Shown: piece by piece, positions 13,584 through 55,767 of the stretch
Layout of the letters: the number at the start of each line of letters is the position of its first letter
How positions within the stretch are numbered: the first letter of the stretch is position 1
DNA from: Alistipes sp.
GTDB lineage: Bacteria; Bacteroidota; Bacteroidia; Bacteroidales; Rikenellaceae
DNA: 64,000 bases
NCBI GenBank assembly: GCA_017938765.1
Contig: JAGBAX010000003.1
Span: 1 to 64,000, forward strand
Direction of reading: 5' to 3'
Notes under the pieces: model-generated
What the model was told of the DNA's origin: nothing
What the model saw: the letters and a program-made list of their open reading frames with translations, nothing else
Database searches by the model: none
Position numbers and translations under genes: made by a program

Positions 13584-13689
13584 TATCATTTTTTTTGAAA
13601 ATAGTACGCGCGCGAAAAAAAAATATGGTATAGGCCTTACTGACGGTGCACAGAGCACTCTACAGCTGACGCAGAACAGAGAATTTAAT

Positions 13690-13827
13690 GAAGTTAAGGA
13701 ATTTAGGGAAGTTAGCGAAAAACACTAAACTCGTTAATCTCCTTAAACTCCTTAATTTCACTACTGTCGGCAAATTTGCCGACACCGCTAAAAAGCTAAT
13801 GGCTAATAGCTAACGGCTAACAGCCAA
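13690..13827. repeat. Inverted and simple repeats in the 729-bp gene-free spacer
   Basis: Within the gene-free stretch 13226-13954 there are an imperfect 28-bp inverted repeat (13690-13717 with 13732-13759), an 18-bp perfect palindrome GTCGGCAAATTTGCCGAC (13766-13783) and a run of GCTAA/GGCTAA units (13790-13827). No ORF of coding character was seen. The 18-bp palindrome could be a regulator site. Confidence 0.55.
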
Positions 13828-13956
13828 TTTCTCGTCAGAAGGCGTAAGATGTGGTGCATCACAAAAGAAACCCCTTTGGGATAGTACTAAAACGTACAGC
13901 CCAAAGGGGTTTACTTTTAGGGATGTGCCGCAGGTTGCGGCTTATCACGAGAAATT
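13826..13956. ncRNA. Structured 131-nt element at the mutB stop codon (copy 1)
   Basis: Outer helix AATTTCTCGT (13826-13835) with ACGAGAAATT (13947-13956); the right arm covers two bases of the mutB stop. Inside are GGTGCATC (13853-13860) with GATGTGCC (13922-13929), a 13-bp stem 13868-13880 with 13900-13912 capped by GTAC-TAAAAC-GTAC, and a small hairpin GCCGCA/TGCGGC (13927-13941). The cap and the GGGATGTGCCG segment recur in the element at 54642-54769, while the helices differ but still pair. On the minus strand the main stem followed by CTTTTG could also terminate mutB transcription. Confidence 0.65.
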
Positions 13957-16075
13957 ACTCGGAGAGGATTTCCAAAATCTTAATCGCCGCCACAGAAATC
14001 TTTGAACCTGGTCCGAAGATTGCTGCTGCGCCGTCGCGATAGAGCTGGTCGTAGTCCTGTGCTGGGATTACACCACCAACAACTACGATGATATCCTCAC
14101 GACCGAGCTTTGCAAGCTCCTCAATAATCTGTGGAACGAGAGTAAGGTGACCTGCTGCAAGTGAAGATACACCAACAACGTGTACATCGTTCTCTACAGC
14201 CTGCTTTGCTGCCTCTGCAGGGGTCTGGAAGAGAGGACCCATATCCACATCAAAGCCGATGTCTGCGTAACCTGTTGCAACAACCTTAGCGCCTCGGTCG
14301 TGACCGTCCTGACCAAGCTTTGCAATCATAATACGTGGCTGACGACCCTCGCGCTTTGCGAACTCTGCGCACATCTGCTTTGCCTTCTCAAACTCTGCAT
14401 CCTGCTTCATAGCTGAACTATATACACATGAAATTGAACGAATTACTGCATTGTAGCGGCCTACAACAACCTCGCAAGCGTATGAAATCTCACCCAGTGT
14501 TGCGCGAACCTTAGCTGCCTCAACAGCGAGCTCAAGGAGGTTACCCTCGCCAGTCTCAACGCACTTAGTGATAGCTGCAAGAGCTGCATCAACAGCTGCC
14601 TGGTCACGATTAGCCTTAAGCTCATTAAGACGAGCAATCTGGCTCTCACGAACAGCTGTGTTATCTACTGCAAGGATATCAATTGGAGCCTCCTTCTCAA
14701 GGCGGTACTCGTTAAGACCGATAATCTTCTGCTCACCAGAGTCGATGCGAGCCTGTGTACGTGCTGCAGCCTCCTCAATACGCATCTTTGGAATACCTGT
14801 CTCAATAGCCTTAGCCATACCACCAAGCTGCTCAACCTCCTCAATAAGAGCCCAAGCCTTGTGAGCAATCTCATTTGTAAGGCTCTCAACATAGTAAGAA
14901 CCTGCCCAAGGGTCTACAGAGCGGCAAACATTAGTCTCCTCCTGGATGTAAATCTGGGTGTTACGAGCGATACGAGCTGAGAAGTCGGTAGGAAGGGCGA
15001 TAGCCTCATCAAGAGCATTGGTATGCAGTGACTGAGTGTGACCCAGAGCTGCGCCCATAGCCTCAATAGCTGTACGGCCAACATTGTTGAATGGATCCTG
15101 CTCGGTAAGTGACCAACCAGAGGTCTGTGAGTGTGTACGCAGTGCTAATGACTTAGGGTTCTTAGGCTCAAACTGCTTAACAATCTTAGCCCACAGCATA
15201 CGAGCGGCACGCATCTTTGCAATCTCCATAAAGTGGTTCATACCGATAGCCCAGAAGAATGAAAGGCGTGGAGCAAAGGCGTCAATGCTCATACCAGCGT
15301 TGATACCTGCGCGCAGGTACTCAAGACCGTCTGCAAGGGTGTATGCAAGCTCAATGTCAGCTGTTGCACCTGCCTCCTGCATATGGTAGCCAGAGATAGA
15401 GATTGAGTTGAACTTAGGCATATTCTTTGAAGTGTACTCAAAGATATCAGCGATAATCTTCATAGAGAACTTTGGAGGGTAGATATAGGTGTTACGCACC
15501 ATAAACTCCTTCAAAATATCGTTCTGAATAGTACCAGCAAGCTGATCAAGAGTACAACCCTGCTCAAGACCTGTAACGATGTAGAATGCAAGCACTGGAA
15601 GTACTGCACCGTTCATTGTCATAGATACAGACATCTTGTCAAGTGGAATACCGTTGAAAAGCACCTTCATATCCTCTACAGAGCAGATAGATACACCAGC
15701 CTTACCAACATCACCCACTACGCGAGGGTGGTCTGCATCGTAACCTCGGTGTGTAGCGAGGTCAAAGGCTACTGAAAGACCCTTCTGACCTGCAGCAAGG
15801 TTACGACGATAGAATGCGTTAGACTCCTCAGCAGTAGAGAAACCTGCATACTGACGGATAGTCCATGGACGCATAACATACATAGTAGAGTAAGGACCAC
15901 GCAGGAACGGTGCAACACCAGCTGCATAGTTCAGATGCTCCATACCCTCAAGGTCTGCCGCAGTATAGCCATCCTTGACAGATATCTGCTCGGCAGTAAT
16001 CCAAGGCTCCTTTGTAGCCTCAGCAGCAGCGGCTGCGCCGCCCTGATATTTCAATTCTGAAAATTTTGCTCTCAT
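13955..16075 (-). CDS. mutB: Methylmalonyl-CoA mutase, large (catalytic) subunit
   Basis: Adenosylcobalamin-dependent interconversion of succinyl-CoA and (R)-methylmalonyl-CoA, the key step of succinate-to-propionate fermentation. 706 residues: an N-terminal TIM barrel with [15 protein letters not shown] (substrate-CoA contacts), [17 protein letters not shown] and [19 protein letters not shown]-terminal B12-binding domain carries [17 protein letters not shown], whose DxHxxG supplies the cobalt-ligating His. The mutA start is 12 bp upstream, so the pair is one operon. No MeaB-type chaperone gene is in the window. The stop codon is embedded in the structured element at 13826-13956. Confidence 0.97.
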
Positions 16076-48703: not shown

Positions 48704-48830
48704 ATTTTGTCGTCAGAGCGGGGTAGTTGCAAGGCATACAAGAAACCGAGCGCGCAGCATACTAAAGCGTATGTGAGCAGCTCGGTTATCGCAGTATAAC
48801 GCAGCAAATGCCCCGCTATCACGACAAAAT
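48704..48830. ncRNA. Structured 127-nt element at the frr stop codon (copy 3, variant)
   Basis: Outer helix ATTTTGTCGT (48704-48713) with ACGACAAAAT (48821-48830), the last base being the first base of the frr stop. Then AGCGGGG (48717-48723) with CCCCGCT (48811-48817), AACCGAGC (48744-48751) with GCTCGGTT (48780-48787), and a cap CATAC-TAAAGC-GTATG (48758-48773). The loop TAAANC, the length and the flush position match the elements at 13826 and 54642; the rest differs. Confidence 0.6.
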
Positions 48831-49387
48831 TAGACGGTCATAATTTCTTTCTCCTTCTTCTCAAACGCAGCATCAATGAGTTTGCTGAACTTCTCAAGGA
48901 GCTTCTGAACTTGGCTCTCGCCATCCTTGCTCTCGTCCTCTGGCATACCCTCCTTAATAGCCTTCTTGAATGCCTCAACAGCATCGCGGCGGGCGTTACG
49001 GATAGAGATACGAGCATTCTCAACCTCGCTCTTACACTGCTTTACGAGCTCCTTACGGCGCTCCTCGGTAAGTGGTGGGATAGAGAGGCGGATAGTCTCG
49101 CCATTGTTTGATGGAGTAAGGCCGATGTTTGAGTCAAGGATAGCCTTCTCAATTGTGCGAATCATATTCTTATCCCAAGGCTGGATAAGGATAGTCTTTG
49201 CATCTGGCACAGTTACACTGGCAACGCCCGATACTGGGGTCTGCGAGCCATAGTAGTCTACGAAAACGCCATTGAGAACATTTGTTGAGGCCTTGCCTGC
49301 GCGGATATTGAGCAGGGTCTCCTCCAAAAAGTCTACTGCACGCTGCATTCTTGCAGAGGCATCAGCTAAAATAGTCTTGGAATCCAT
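48830..49387 (-). CDS. frr: Ribosome recycling factor
   Basis: Works with EF-G to split post-termination ribosomes. 185 residues, the normal length, with the coiled-coil/hinge pattern: NIRAGKASTNVLNGVFVDYYGSQTPV, WDKNMIRTIEKAI, GETIRLSIPPLTEERRKELVKQ and RNARRDAVEAFKKA. It lies 14 bp after a TlpA-type gene, which separates it from its usual partner pyrH. Its stop is part of a structured element (48704-48830). Confidence 0.97.
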   Translation of the reverse strand: MDSKTILADASARMQRAVDFLEETLLNIRAGKASTNVLNGVFVDYYGSQTPVSGVASVTVPDAKTILIQPWDKNMIRTIEKAILDSNIGLTPSNNGETIRLSIPPLTEERRKELVKQCKSEVENARISIRNARRDAVEAFKKAIKEGMPEDESKDGESQVQKLLEKFSKLIDAAFEKKEKEIMTV

Positions 49388-52749: not shown

Positions 52750-54531
52750 ATGGAAAACATTAAGGTAGCAAACGAGAATTTCGATTGGGCAGCGTTTGAG
52801 AGCGAGTCTGGTCTTTACCCTGTTTCAAAGGAGGAGATTGCAGCGCAGTATGACAACACAATGTCAAACATCGCTGTAGGCGAGACCGTAGAGGGTACTG
52901 TAACTGAGGTAAACAAGCGCGAGGTTATCGTAAATATCGGCTACAAGAGCGAGGGCGTTATCGCTGCATCTGAGTTCCGTTACAACTCTGAGCTGCAGGT
53001 TGGCGACAAGGTAGAGGTTTATGTAGAGTCAGTAGAGGATCGTGGCGGTCAGCTTATCCTTTCTCACAAGAAGGCTCGTCAGCTTAAGAGCTGGGATCGT
53101 GTTAACGAGGCTCTGGAGCGCGATGAGGTTATCAAGGGTTATGTTAAGTGCCGTACTAAGGGCGGTATGATCGTTGACGTATTTGGTATTGAGGCATTCC
53201 TCCCAGGTTCACAGATTGACGTTAAGCCTATCCGCGACTACGATGTATATGTAGACAAGACTATGGAGTTCAAGGTTGTTAAGATCAACCAGGAGTTCCG
53301 CAATGTTGTTGTATCTCACAAGGCTCTTATTGAGGCTGAGCTTGAGGCACAGAAGCAGGTTATTATGTCTAAGCTTGAGAAGGGTCAGATTCTTGAGGGT
53401 ACCGTTAAGAACATCACTACTTACGGTGTATTCATTGACCTTGGTGGCGTAGACGGTCTTATCCACATCACAGACCTCTCTTGGGGCCGCGTAAGCCACC
53501 CAGAGGAGGTTGTTGCTCTTGACCAGAAGCTCAACGTTGTAATCCTTGACTTTGATGATAGCAAGAAGCGCATCGCACTTGGTCTTAAGCAGCTCACAGC
53601 TCACCCTTGGGAGTCTCTTGACGCAGAGCTCAAGGTTGGTGACCGCGTAAAGGGTAAGGTTGTTGTTATGGCTGACTACGGCGCATTCGTTGAGATTGCA
53701 CCAGGCGTAGAGGGTCTTATCCACGTATCAGAGATGTCTTGGAGCCAGCACCTGCGTTCTGCACAGGACTTTATGAAGGTTGGCGACGAGGTAGAGGCTG
53801 TAGTTCTTACACTCGACCGCGAGGAGCGCAAGATGAGCCTCGGTATCAAGCAGCTCACTGCTGACCCTTGGGAGAACATTGAGACTAAGTACCCTGTAGG
53901 CACAAAGTGCACTGCAAAGGTTCGCAACTTCACAAACTTCGGCGTATTCGTTGAGATTGAGGAGGGTATTGATGGCCTTATCCACATCTCTGACCTCTCT
54001 TGGACAAAGAAGGTTAAGCATCCAAATGAGTTCACATCAGTAGGTGCAGACATTGAGGTTGTAGTACTTGAGATTGACAAGGAGAACCGTCGTCTCAGCC
54101 TTGGTCACAAGCAGCTTGAGGAGAACCCTTGGAACGCTATTGAGCAGCAGTTTGCCGTAGATACAGTTCACACTGGTACTATCACAGAGCTTACAGACAA
54201 GGGCGCTATCGTATCACTTGCTGAGAATGTAGAGGGCTTCGCTCCTGCAAAGCAGCTTGTTAAGGAGGATGGCACCACTCTTAAGGCAGGTGAGACAGCA
54301 GAGTTCAAGGTAATTGACTTCTCAAAGGCAACAAAGCGCATCACCCTTTCACACAGCCGTCTTTTTGAGGAGGCACGTCGTGCAGAGGCAGCAGCAGAGA
54401 AGGCAGAGCGTAAGGCAGCAGCAGAGGCTACAAAGTCATCTGTAAAGAAGATTCAGCAGGCTGTTGAGCGCACAACACTCGGCGACATCGCAGGTCTTGC
54501 AGAGCTTAAGGCACAGCTGGAGAAGAAGTAA
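52750..54531 (+). CDS. rpsA: Small-subunit ribosomal protein S1
   Basis: 593 residues with six S1 (OB-fold) repeats at about 43-110, 128-190, 210-278, 295-365, 382-452 and 470-535. Repeats 3 to 5 have the strong form GVFIDLGGVDGLIHITDLSWGR. The C-terminal 55 residues are a charged Ala/Glu/Lys helix. S1 binds mRNA and is important for initiation without strong Shine-Dalgarno sites, the normal case here. Own promoter and terminator, so monocistronic. Confidence 0.96.
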   Translation: MENIKVANENFDWAAFESESGLYPVSKEEIAAQYDNTMSNIAVGETVEGTVTEVNKREVIVNIGYKSEGVIAASEFRYNSELQVGDKVEVYVESVEDRGGQLILSHKKARQLKSWDRVNEALERDEVIKGYVKCRTKGGMIVDVFGIEAFLPGSQIDVKPIRDYDVYVDKTMEFKVVKINQEFRNVVVSHKALIEAELEAQKQVIMSKLEKGQILEGTVKNITTYGVFIDLGGVDGLIHITDLSWGRVSHPEEVVALDQKLNVVILDFDDSKKRIALGLKQLTAHPWESLDAELKVGDRVKGKVVVMADYGAFVEIAPGVEGLIHVSEMSWSQHLRSAQDFMKVGDEVEAVVLTLDREERKMSLGIKQLTADPWENIETKYPVGTKCTAKVRNFTNFGVFVEIEEGIDGLIHISDLSWTKKVKHPNEFTSVGADIEVVVLEIDKENRRLSLGHKQLEENPWNAIEQQFAVDTVHTGTITELTDKGAIVSLAENVEGFAPAKQLVKEDGTTLKAGETAEFKVIDFSKATKRITLSHSRLFEEARRAEAAAEKAERKAAAEATKSSVKKIQQAVERTTLGDIAGLAELKAQLEKK

Positions 54532-54559: not shown

Positions 54560-54588
54560 GAGGGCGGCCAAACGGTCGCCCTCTGTTT
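54560..54588 (+). terminator. rpsA: rpsA terminator
   Basis: GAGGGCG (54560-54566) pairs with CGCCCTC (54577-54583), extended by GCC/GGT, then TGTTTGT. Confidence 0.75.
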
Positions 54589-54641: not shown

Positions 54642-54769
54642 ATTTTGCTATTAGAGTATGCCAGATACGGTGCATCGTGAAAAAAAGCAGTGGCGGATAG
54701 TACTAAATCGTACAGCCGCCACTGATTTTTAAGGGATGTGCCGTAGGTGGCACACTATAATAGCAAAAT
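54642..54769. ncRNA. Structured 128-nt element at the GGGtGRT gene stop (copy 2)
   Basis: Outer helix ATTTTGCTATTA (54642-54653) with TAATAGCAAAAT (54758-54769). Inside: GGTGCATC (54669-54676) with GATGTGCC (54735-54742); CAGTGGCGG (54688-54696) with CCGCCACTG (54716-54724) capped by GTAC-TAAATC-GTAC; and GTGCC/GGCAC (54738-54753). The cap and GGGATGTGCCG are shared with 13826-13956, the helices are not. On the minus strand the main stem is followed by CTTTTTT, so it is also a good terminator for the GGGtGRT gene. Confidence 0.65.
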
Positions 54770-55767
54770 TATTTCATTGCCTGCTGAACTGCTACAGCCA
54801 CTGCAACGGTAGCACCTACCATTGGGTTGTTACCCATACCGAGGAAGCCCATCATCTCAACGTGTGCTGGAACTGAAGATGAGCCTGCGAACTGTGCGTC
54901 AGAGTGCATACGGCCGAGGGTGTCGGTCATACCGTATGAAGCTGGACCTGCGCCCATGTTATCTGGGTGAAGAGTACGACCAGTACCACCACCTGATGCT
55001 ACAGAGAAGTACTTCTTACCTGCAAGAACGCGCTCCTTCTTATATGTACCTGCTACTGGGTGCTGGAAGCGGGTTGGGTTTGTAGAGTTACCAGTGATAG
55101 ATACATCTACATCCTCCTTCCACATAACAGCTACGCCCTCGCGAACATCGTCTACACCGTAGCAACGAACCTTTGAACGAAGGCCGTCAGAGTAAGCGAT
55201 AGTCTCTACCTCGTGAACCTCACCTGTGTAGTAGTCAAACTGTGTCTGAACATAGGTAAAGCCGTTGATACGAGAGATAATCTTTGCAGCGTCCTTACCA
55301 AGACCGTTAAGGATTACGCGAAGAGGATTTACGCGAACCTTATTTGCCATCTCTGCAATCTTGATTGCGCCCTCAGCAGCTGCGAAAGACTCGTGACCAG
55401 CAAGGAATGCGAAGCACTGAGTCTCCTCACGAAGAAGACGAGCAGCGAGGTTACCGTGACCGATACCTACCTTACGATCGTCTGCTACTGAACCTGGGAT
55501 GCAGAATGCCTGCAAGCCCTCGCCGATAGCCTCGGCAGCGTCTGCTGCAGATGTGCAGCCCTTCTTAATTGCGATAGCAGCGCCAACAACATATGCCCAC
55601 TTTGCATTCTCAAAGCAGATTGGCTGGGTCTCCTCACACATTGTGTATGGGTCGATGCCCTTAGCCTCGCAAATTGCCTTTGCATCCTCAATACCGTTGA
55701 TGCCATATTGTGCAAGCACAGCGTTAATCTTATCTATTCTGCGCTCATAGCTCTCAAATAATGCCAT
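54769..55767 (-). CDS. GGGtGRT protein
   Basis: 332 residues, the family named after the motif seen here as ASGGGTGRTLHPDN near 270. The remaining part is well conserved in character: RRIDKINAVLAQYGI, CFENAKWAYVVGAAIAIKKG, GIGHGNLAARLL and FLAGHESFAAAEGAIKIA. Function is not established. It follows the Fe-S scaffold-like gene by 34 bp in one operon, a pairing I recall as typical in Bacteroidales, suggesting a metal-cluster role. Its stop merges with a structured element. Confidence 0.9.
   Translation of the reverse strand: MALFESYERRIDKINAVLAQYGINGIEDAKAICEAKGIDPYTMCEETQPICFENAKWAYVVGAAIAIKKGCTSAADAAEAIGEGLQAFCIPGSVADDRKVGIGHGNLAARLLREETQCFAFLAGHESFAAAEGAIKIAEMANKVRVNPLRVILNGLGKDAAKIISRINGFTYVQTQFDYYTGEVHEVETIAYSDGLRSKVRCYGVDDVREGVAVMWKEDVDVSITGNSTNPTRFQHPVAGTYKKERVLAGKKYFSVASGGGTGRTLHPDNMGAGPASYGMTDTLGRMHSDAQFAGSSSVPAHVEMMGFLGMGNNPMVGATVAVAVAVQQAMK

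Follow-up and report, generated by a model that had tools for sequence, protein, structure and literature searches.

The element at positions 54642-54769 of the 64,000-nt stretch of Alistipes sp. DNA analyzed here (the window) is an interrupted, rod-like hairpin of ∼125 to 130 nt, with a conserved tip, conserved internal loops, and complementary stems that change freely. We think it fairly probable that it is one copy of a non-autonomous, MITE-derived, stop-codon-anchored mobile hairpin family of Bacteroidales, whose Rikenellaceae version is most likely a MITE-derived family specialised for gene 3′ ends. This reading draws on the structure of the copies, their dispersal, variation at orthologous sites, tandem stacking, stop-codon register, strand bias, and MITE relatives. 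The features of the window are as follows.

54642-54769, + strand: element copy 1 (MFE −66.7 kcal/mol, z −12.1, 126.8 bits with covariance model R1)
54642-54653, + strand: 5′ arm of the outer helix of copy 1, partner of 54758-54769 in the dot-bracket structure
54758-54769, + strand: 3′ arm of the outer helix of copy 1, whose last base is the third stop-codon base of the gene at 54769-55767 (−)
54696-54716, + strand: conserved cap GATAGTACTAAATCGTACAGC, with a GTAC/GTAC tip helix and unequal bulges
54688-54724, + strand: main stem CAGTGGCGG...CCGCCACTG with A/T flanks
54666-54745, + strand: extent of the subtype A inner helix, formed by 54666-54676 and 54735-54745
13826-13956, + strand: element copy 2, at the methylmalonyl-CoA mutase stop (z −10.4, R1 128.3 bits)
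48704-48830, + strand: element copy 3, at the ribosome recycling factor stop (R1 65.5 bits, E 1.1e-13)
54769-55767, − strand: carrier gene, GGGtGRT protein (PF14057)
13955-16075, − strand: carrier gene, methylmalonyl-CoA mutase
48830-49387, − strand: carrier gene, ribosome recycling factor (PF01765)
54560-54583, + strand: ordinary terminator of the convergent S1-domain gene at 52750-54531, outside the element

Copies 1 and 2, which the initial annotation had set side by side, have the coordinates that it gave, and each folds strongly on the + strand. They share the cap (GATAGTACTAAAnCGTACAGC) and the segment GGGATGTGCCG, for which the chance expectation in the window is 0.01 and 0.03, and their outer helices and main stems are compensated between the two copies, as had been claimed. 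The third helix described there, a small hairpin, does not form a separate helix when the + strand is folded optimally; each of its halves has its partner on the 5′ side, across the rod (in copy 1, 54666-54676 with 54735-54745 and 54655-54663 with 54748-54756), so that the element is one long interrupted hairpin. A local small hairpin was seen only in the weaker minus-strand fold of the copy at 13826-13956. The subtype A inner helix of copy 1 contains G-U pairs on the + strand. When covariance model R1, built from 58 copies, was run on the window, it found the third copy at 48704-48830, the inner part of which has diverged.

We examined covariation in alignment A2, which holds 58 of 63 non-redundant copies, the other 5 having irregular ends. 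It is biased to good folders, since 38 nested pairs were the minimum for inclusion. Double-sided changes were present in 29 of the 36 consensus pairs, a number reached by 0 of 500 shuffles; standard pairs filled 94.5% of cells, and 457 cells were double-changed versus 137 in the shuffles. Sliding the partner by 1 to 3 columns abolished the signal. In an unselected test on the 149 cap-defined copies of the loci retrieved, the left arm paired with its own right arm at a median of −64.4 kcal/mol, compared to −28.7 with the arms of other copies, and own arms beat all ten swapped partners in 136 copies. The proposal of a selected fold is thus strongly supported, both by covariation in A2 and by the arm swaps on unselected copies. 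What is conserved is the tip, with its GTAC/GTAC helix and unequal bulges, and the small internal loops, while the stems vary freely. G-U intermediates are absent from most pair swaps in the main stem, which suggests that part of the covariation probably arose by block exchange or hairpin-templated copying, besides single compensations. Where hairpins are mobile and modules are exchanged, covariation alone is no proof of a functional RNA. The initial annotation had also held that these are not mere repeats; the fold is indeed conserved, but the copies also belong to a repeat family that is dispersed, turns over, and has relatives among MITEs.

At each of the three copies in the window, the stop codon of a gene on the opposite strand lies no more than 3 nt from one end. 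In the same genome (G000), where we examined 34 of ∼42 copies, 32 lay where an ORF of 120 aa or more stops; the end and the stop were at most 3 nt apart in 27, and the register was identical in 20. Among the 149 cap-defined copies, an opposite-strand frame of ∼100 aa or more stops −30 to +18 nt from the gene-side end in 124; in 85, an ORF of 120 aa or more stops no further than 3 nt away. Of the 25 copies outside the 124, judged by eye, 14 follow on another copy at its far end, 6 begin where an ordinary terminator has its T-run, 3 lie at the stops of frames that are short or cut, and 2 are ambiguous. As a control, 535 genes were scanned for ordinary terminators; 421 had none by the simple scan, and 106 were excluded as element-like. 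The terminators of element-free genes started 0 to 3 nt from the stop in 14 of 114 cases, compared to 85 of 149 copies (Fisher p 2e-14, copies taken as independent, some of them orthologous).

The third base of the stop codon is often part of the outer helix's last base pair, and a TGA in the outer arm acts as a stop for shifted frames. The register with TA outside and R inside the element was TTA:A in 49 of 56 and CTA:G in 18 of 27 cases, with no clear arm in 59 of the 149 copies. An exact register of this kind was rejected, as inspection shows 0 to 3 nt of play. A RelE-like cut between stop-codon bases 2 and 3 was dropped because of this flexibility.

Copy 1 had further been described as a terminator-like stem for the GGGtGRT gene. 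Its position agrees with this: the stop codon overlaps the element end, the PF14057 assignment was confirmed, and element-free orthologues mostly have ordinary terminators. However, the better-folding strand is antisense and the simple terminator scan makes no call, so that a terminator role at this gene is one that we only infer. The main stem of copy 1 is flanked by A- and T-runs on both sides, and no U-run is found in the sequence at its 3′ end.

The strand that folds is the one antisense to the carrier gene. Read on the + strand, the consensus pairs include 168 G-T versus 27 A-C, and of 97 sequences, 91 had the lower MFE on this strand under RNA parameters and 95 under DNA parameters. Fixed subtype-specific wobbles account for part of this bias. 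G-U pairs make up 8 to 10% of the strand-specific fold.

A family match was obtained for 25 of the 30 carriers submitted from the same genome. They include pyruvate:ferredoxin oxidoreductase, GAPDH, fructose-bisphosphate aldolase, malate dehydrogenase, inorganic pyrophosphatase, EF-G, and GMP synthase, as well as transporters, a response regulator, a lipase, and a phage-repressor-like S24 peptidase. The median fraction of C-ending codons was 0.583 in carriers (n = 106) versus 0.474 in same-strand non-carriers (n = 298; p 6e-12). The value in other-strand genes was 0.556 (n = 245), so strand composition contributes, and we regard the carriers as presumably, from their codon usage, well expressed. 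At 4-fold sites, G+T was 0.545 in carrier-strand non-carriers versus 0.458 in other-strand genes (0 of 2000 permutations), which indicates that the carriers are leading-strand genes. On contigs with at least two listed copies, 37 of 38 copies in the same genome shared the orientation of their contig, as did 58 of 60 in G003 and 33 of 36 in G017 among the matches listed; this tally was made by hand, with weak own matches left out, e.g., a 47-nt match on the other strand at C26:154487.

The family is dispersed in its own genome, with about 40 copies. At least 114 stretches were matched, every one titled Alistipes or Rikenellaceae. Matches occurred in 14 of 41 genomes, all in the same genus, at 0 to at least 84 per genome with both strands counted, and across Rikenellaceae in 109 of 268 genomes, from 3 of 22 genera (E 1e-6). 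At the GGGtGRT stop, compared by eye in 13 of the 20 loci fetched, one subtype is found in the own genome and G006 and another in G017, G021, and G011; the nine other loci read have no element and mostly ordinary terminators. Orthologous carriers may bear different subtypes, unlike copies are stacked in tandem at 22 junctions, synteny is kept around several carriers, and element-free orthologues keep the same C-terminus in clear cases (L002/L096, L015/L129, and L051/L101). Presence that varies among relatives, subtypes that differ at the same stop, and unlike copies in tandem are what would be seen for a mobile element.

Flank alignment yielded no clean empty site, 14 of 16 pairs falling below the cut (≤4 of 200 shuffles as good), which we ascribe to the intergenic DNA of the relatives being too diverged. 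The pairs L022/L075 and L104/L030 were rejected, the match in the former lying only in an unrelated GGCTAAY repeat and that in the latter being a short stretch 200 nt off. For Rikenellaceae copies, no target duplication was found outside the helix (109 of the 149 copies, those with a clear helix), the significant flank equalities lay inside the palindromic arms (AATT), and no second TIR was found. A match on a viral contig (L027) was a chance match with no stems.

Several observations concern the surroundings of the copies. L041, L059, L070, and L116 (variant, L004) lack the far outer arm and are joined to a recurring sequence, ∼GAGCAGTGAAGAGCCnCCAAAGGTGGGTCA, at junctions that look as if truncated at a preferred microhomology. 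At L188 (G003, C64), the GGGtGRT gene has its last ∼60 nt duplicated as a direct repeat; the second copy lies 126 nt downstream of the first, and the two are not separated by an element. Several copies have runs of GGCTAAY-like heptamers (GCTAATGGCTAACGGCTAACAGCC) on their far side, at 13790-13826 and in the left flanks of L003, L008, L014, and L021; such runs occur without any copy too and are a separate intergenic repeat. A long palindromic stretch, GAAGTTAAGGAATTTAGGGAAGTTAGCG...CTCGTTAATCTCCTTAAACTCCTTAATTTC, lies at 13680-13765, with similar ones near copies L055, L061, and L092.

The strand, carrier, and distribution data also bear on an alternative in which the element is a 3′ module with a function for the host, acting as a strong terminator or protecting the mRNA 3′ end. 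It would be favoured where well expressed genes end, would have spread by gene conversion and not by transposition, and would owe its leading-strand bias to such genes being on the leading strand. That many carriers are housekeeping genes richer in C-ending codons than their same-strand neighbours is consistent with such a role, as are the ordinary terminators that element-free orthologues have past the same stop and the A- and T-runs flanking the main stem on both sides. We nonetheless consider this explanation unlikely. A selected mRNA hairpin should put its G-U pairs on the gene strand, and the opposite was found; moreover, the module is patchy among congeners and unlike copies are stacked in tandem.

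A MITE origin is suggested by relatives in other Bacteroidales families. A broader model, R2 (42 sequences), matched 12 of 393 genomes of the order (E 1e-5), of which 10 belong to other families. Among the 25 listed matches of those genomes, 18 have a stop (frame of at least 100 aa) −30 to +16 nt from the corresponding end, 5 of these within 3 nt, as raw counts; on the expected side, matches were at gene ends in 6 of 6 cases in G474 and 0 of 3 in G568. Copies in G357 and G568 are 97.6 to 99.4% identical over 157 to 167 bp and are bounded by ∼17-bp terminal inverted repeats. The TIR pattern matched 190 times in G357 (control, 26), 120 times in G568 (control, 5), and 18 times in G300 (control, 10). 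Of 15 paired-TIR elements, 11 (G568, 6/8; G357, 4/5; G300, 1/2) have exact 4-bp ANNT duplications within TANNTA, a count in which the search pattern itself supplies the last T of the left copy and the first A of the right one; 8 of these 11 have an R2 match. Thirty TIR-selected loci gave ten R2 matches (E <1e-6), two of which are the same element; this element and two more were among the matches of the order-wide R2 search, and six are new. R2 hairpins within elements with TIRs and target duplications indicate that in these distant relatives, from two other Bacteroidales families, the hairpin travels in genuine MITEs. The R2 scores that join the Rikenellaceae copies to these TIR-MITEs are moderate, about 43 to 60 bits. 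The abundant MITEs of G357 and G568 (L266-L294) have TAGTGCTTGCAAGAAAAC-type ends and 4-bp ANNT duplications, and some of them, such as L272 and L293, are without an R2 match.

As to the features that define MITEs, the element is short (∼128 nt), non-coding, and multi-copy, and it has terminal inverted repeats in the form of the outer helix in Rikenellaceae and of the ∼17-bp TIRs in the G357 and G568 relatives, with target duplications seen at the relatives' TIR elements and none detectable at Rikenellaceae copies. REP sequences, at 20 to 40 bp with a GTAG/CGTC tag, are not matched; the outer arm of our element varies and CGTC occurs in some copies only. The comparison with Rfam (Rfam 15) returned 0 matches in the window and none on the element in 14 related loci, the best sub-gathering matches being miRNA hairpin models at E 0.003, far below the gathering score. 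We found no description of the family in the open-licence papers searched.

Mobilising enzymes were sought as well. In the loci examined, no composite copy, with an ORF separating its halves, was seen; the four long frames enclosed by paired TIRs were, by eye, unlike transposases; and no parent transposon with matching ends was found. A Y1 transposase was rejected as the driver, with Y1_Tnp in 0 of 25 congeneric genomes (incomplete assemblies), as was a special tyrosine recombinase, for which the copy-rich G011 and G022 have only two matches each (E 1e-10). A reverse transcriptase was likewise rejected, PF00078 being present in 10 of the 25 genomes with no correlation with copy number and not found in the copy-rich G011, G017, G021, and G022 (78 to 87% complete).

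The last result weighs on an RNA- or cDNA-mediated, SINE-like spread, in which the insertion site would be set by translation or mRNA 3′ ends and not by DNA sequence: the folded antisense strand would be joined to mRNA 3′ ends, at stops or terminator U-runs, and fixed by annealing to the lagging-strand template, so that well expressed leading-strand genes would be the ones to receive it. Stop codons, terminator T-runs, and the ends of earlier copies are sites that such a process would use, and the leading-strand bias, the carrier types, and the antisense folded strand would also fit. With the PF00078 distribution and the DNA-transposon TIRs and TSDs of the relatives against it, we judge this quite improbable. 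To our knowledge, a SINE-like way of life has not been described in bacteria; if true, this would be a bacterial SINE-like element targeted by translation or mRNA 3′ ends. Less probable still is a repeated small antisense RNA gene transcribed from the folded strand. A strand-specific fold with its G-U pairs would suit one, but no promoter-like site was found near copy 1 in a scan of the sigma-70 type, not the Bacteroidetes type, copy 1 is without a U-run at its 3′ end, and the far-side gene reads the other way in about half of the copies (55 +E−, 53 −E−). Integron attC sites, which conserve structure over sequence, fold from the bottom strand, and lie close to stop codons, resemble the element in these respects and in its internal loops and tandem arrays, but we give an attC-like identity almost no credence, since no R-box pair (GTTRRRY/RYYYAAC) was seen in A2 by eye, the synteny kept around several carriers means that they are not cassettes, and the two tyrosine-recombinase matches in each of G011 and G022 came from a general model that is not IntI-specific.

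Under the MITE-derived reading, insertion, or re-insertion next to an older copy, would take place at gene 3′ ends. The element end would restore the stop codon, as TA plus the element's A or G or as TGA in the outer arm, and the A/T-flanked main stem would take over as terminator; with the stop restored and the terminator replaced, insertion would be nearly harmless. The antisense-strand fold would probably be what the mobilising machinery recognises, in single-stranded DNA or in RNA, and the bias in replication strand and in carriers suggests a process tied to replication and carrier expression. Several points weigh against this reading: a target of TA or TANNTA would not by itself lead one to expect stops at most copies, no transposase was found, the Rikenellaceae copies have no second TIR or target duplication and no clean empty site, their homology to TIR-MITEs relies on moderate R2 scores, and G568 gave 0 of 3 matches at a gene end on the expected side. 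The family redefines many gene 3′ ends in Rikenellaceae and links hairpins across several Bacteroidales families, and its covariance models can be used for annotation. With its stop register, often essential carrier genes, and placement nearly always on one replication strand, it is also a natural system for asking how an element finds gene ends harmlessly.

Among described repeats, ERIC is similar in size to the element, and we know of no stop-codon anchoring for bcr1. REPs, the GTAG/CGTC-tagged palindromes, are high-copy, intergenic, and near genes according to PMC3733652, which also states that single-stranded REP DNA is bound by RAYT and that GTAG REP ends give flanking ORFs a TAG stop codon. 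REPs are 20 to 40 bp, whereas the element measures ∼128 nt, contains several internal loops, and lacks a fixed tetranucleotide tag; a Y1 transposase is present in 0 of 25 genomes. Like ERIC, Correia, and other bacterial MITEs, as described in PMC10969869, the element is an imperfect palindrome, intergenic, variable in copy number, and of effect at gene 3′ ends; unlike them, it has a close stop register, a replication orientation, and almost freely co-varying stems, differences drawn from their description. BrickBuilt of Porphyromonas gingivalis is likewise a Bacteroidales MITE (PMC4596501) and differs by its TIRs (e.g., CCGAAAGGTCTC) and internal minisatellite. The bcr1 repeat of the Bacillus cereus group, from another phylum, is similarly a structured repeat of ∼150 bp in PMC2267715, where its mobile character appears in the title of a cited reference. 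The hairpin family is distinguished by its size, register, replication bias, and the lack of a detected RAYT, while contact of repeats with stop codons had already been reported. In genus g36 (L213, L221, L228, and L235), we also observed a hairpin family with unrelated stems (AAAAACGCATATAGCGGG...) and a similar tip, whose hairpins adjoin TAA triplets that, by eye, resemble stop codons.
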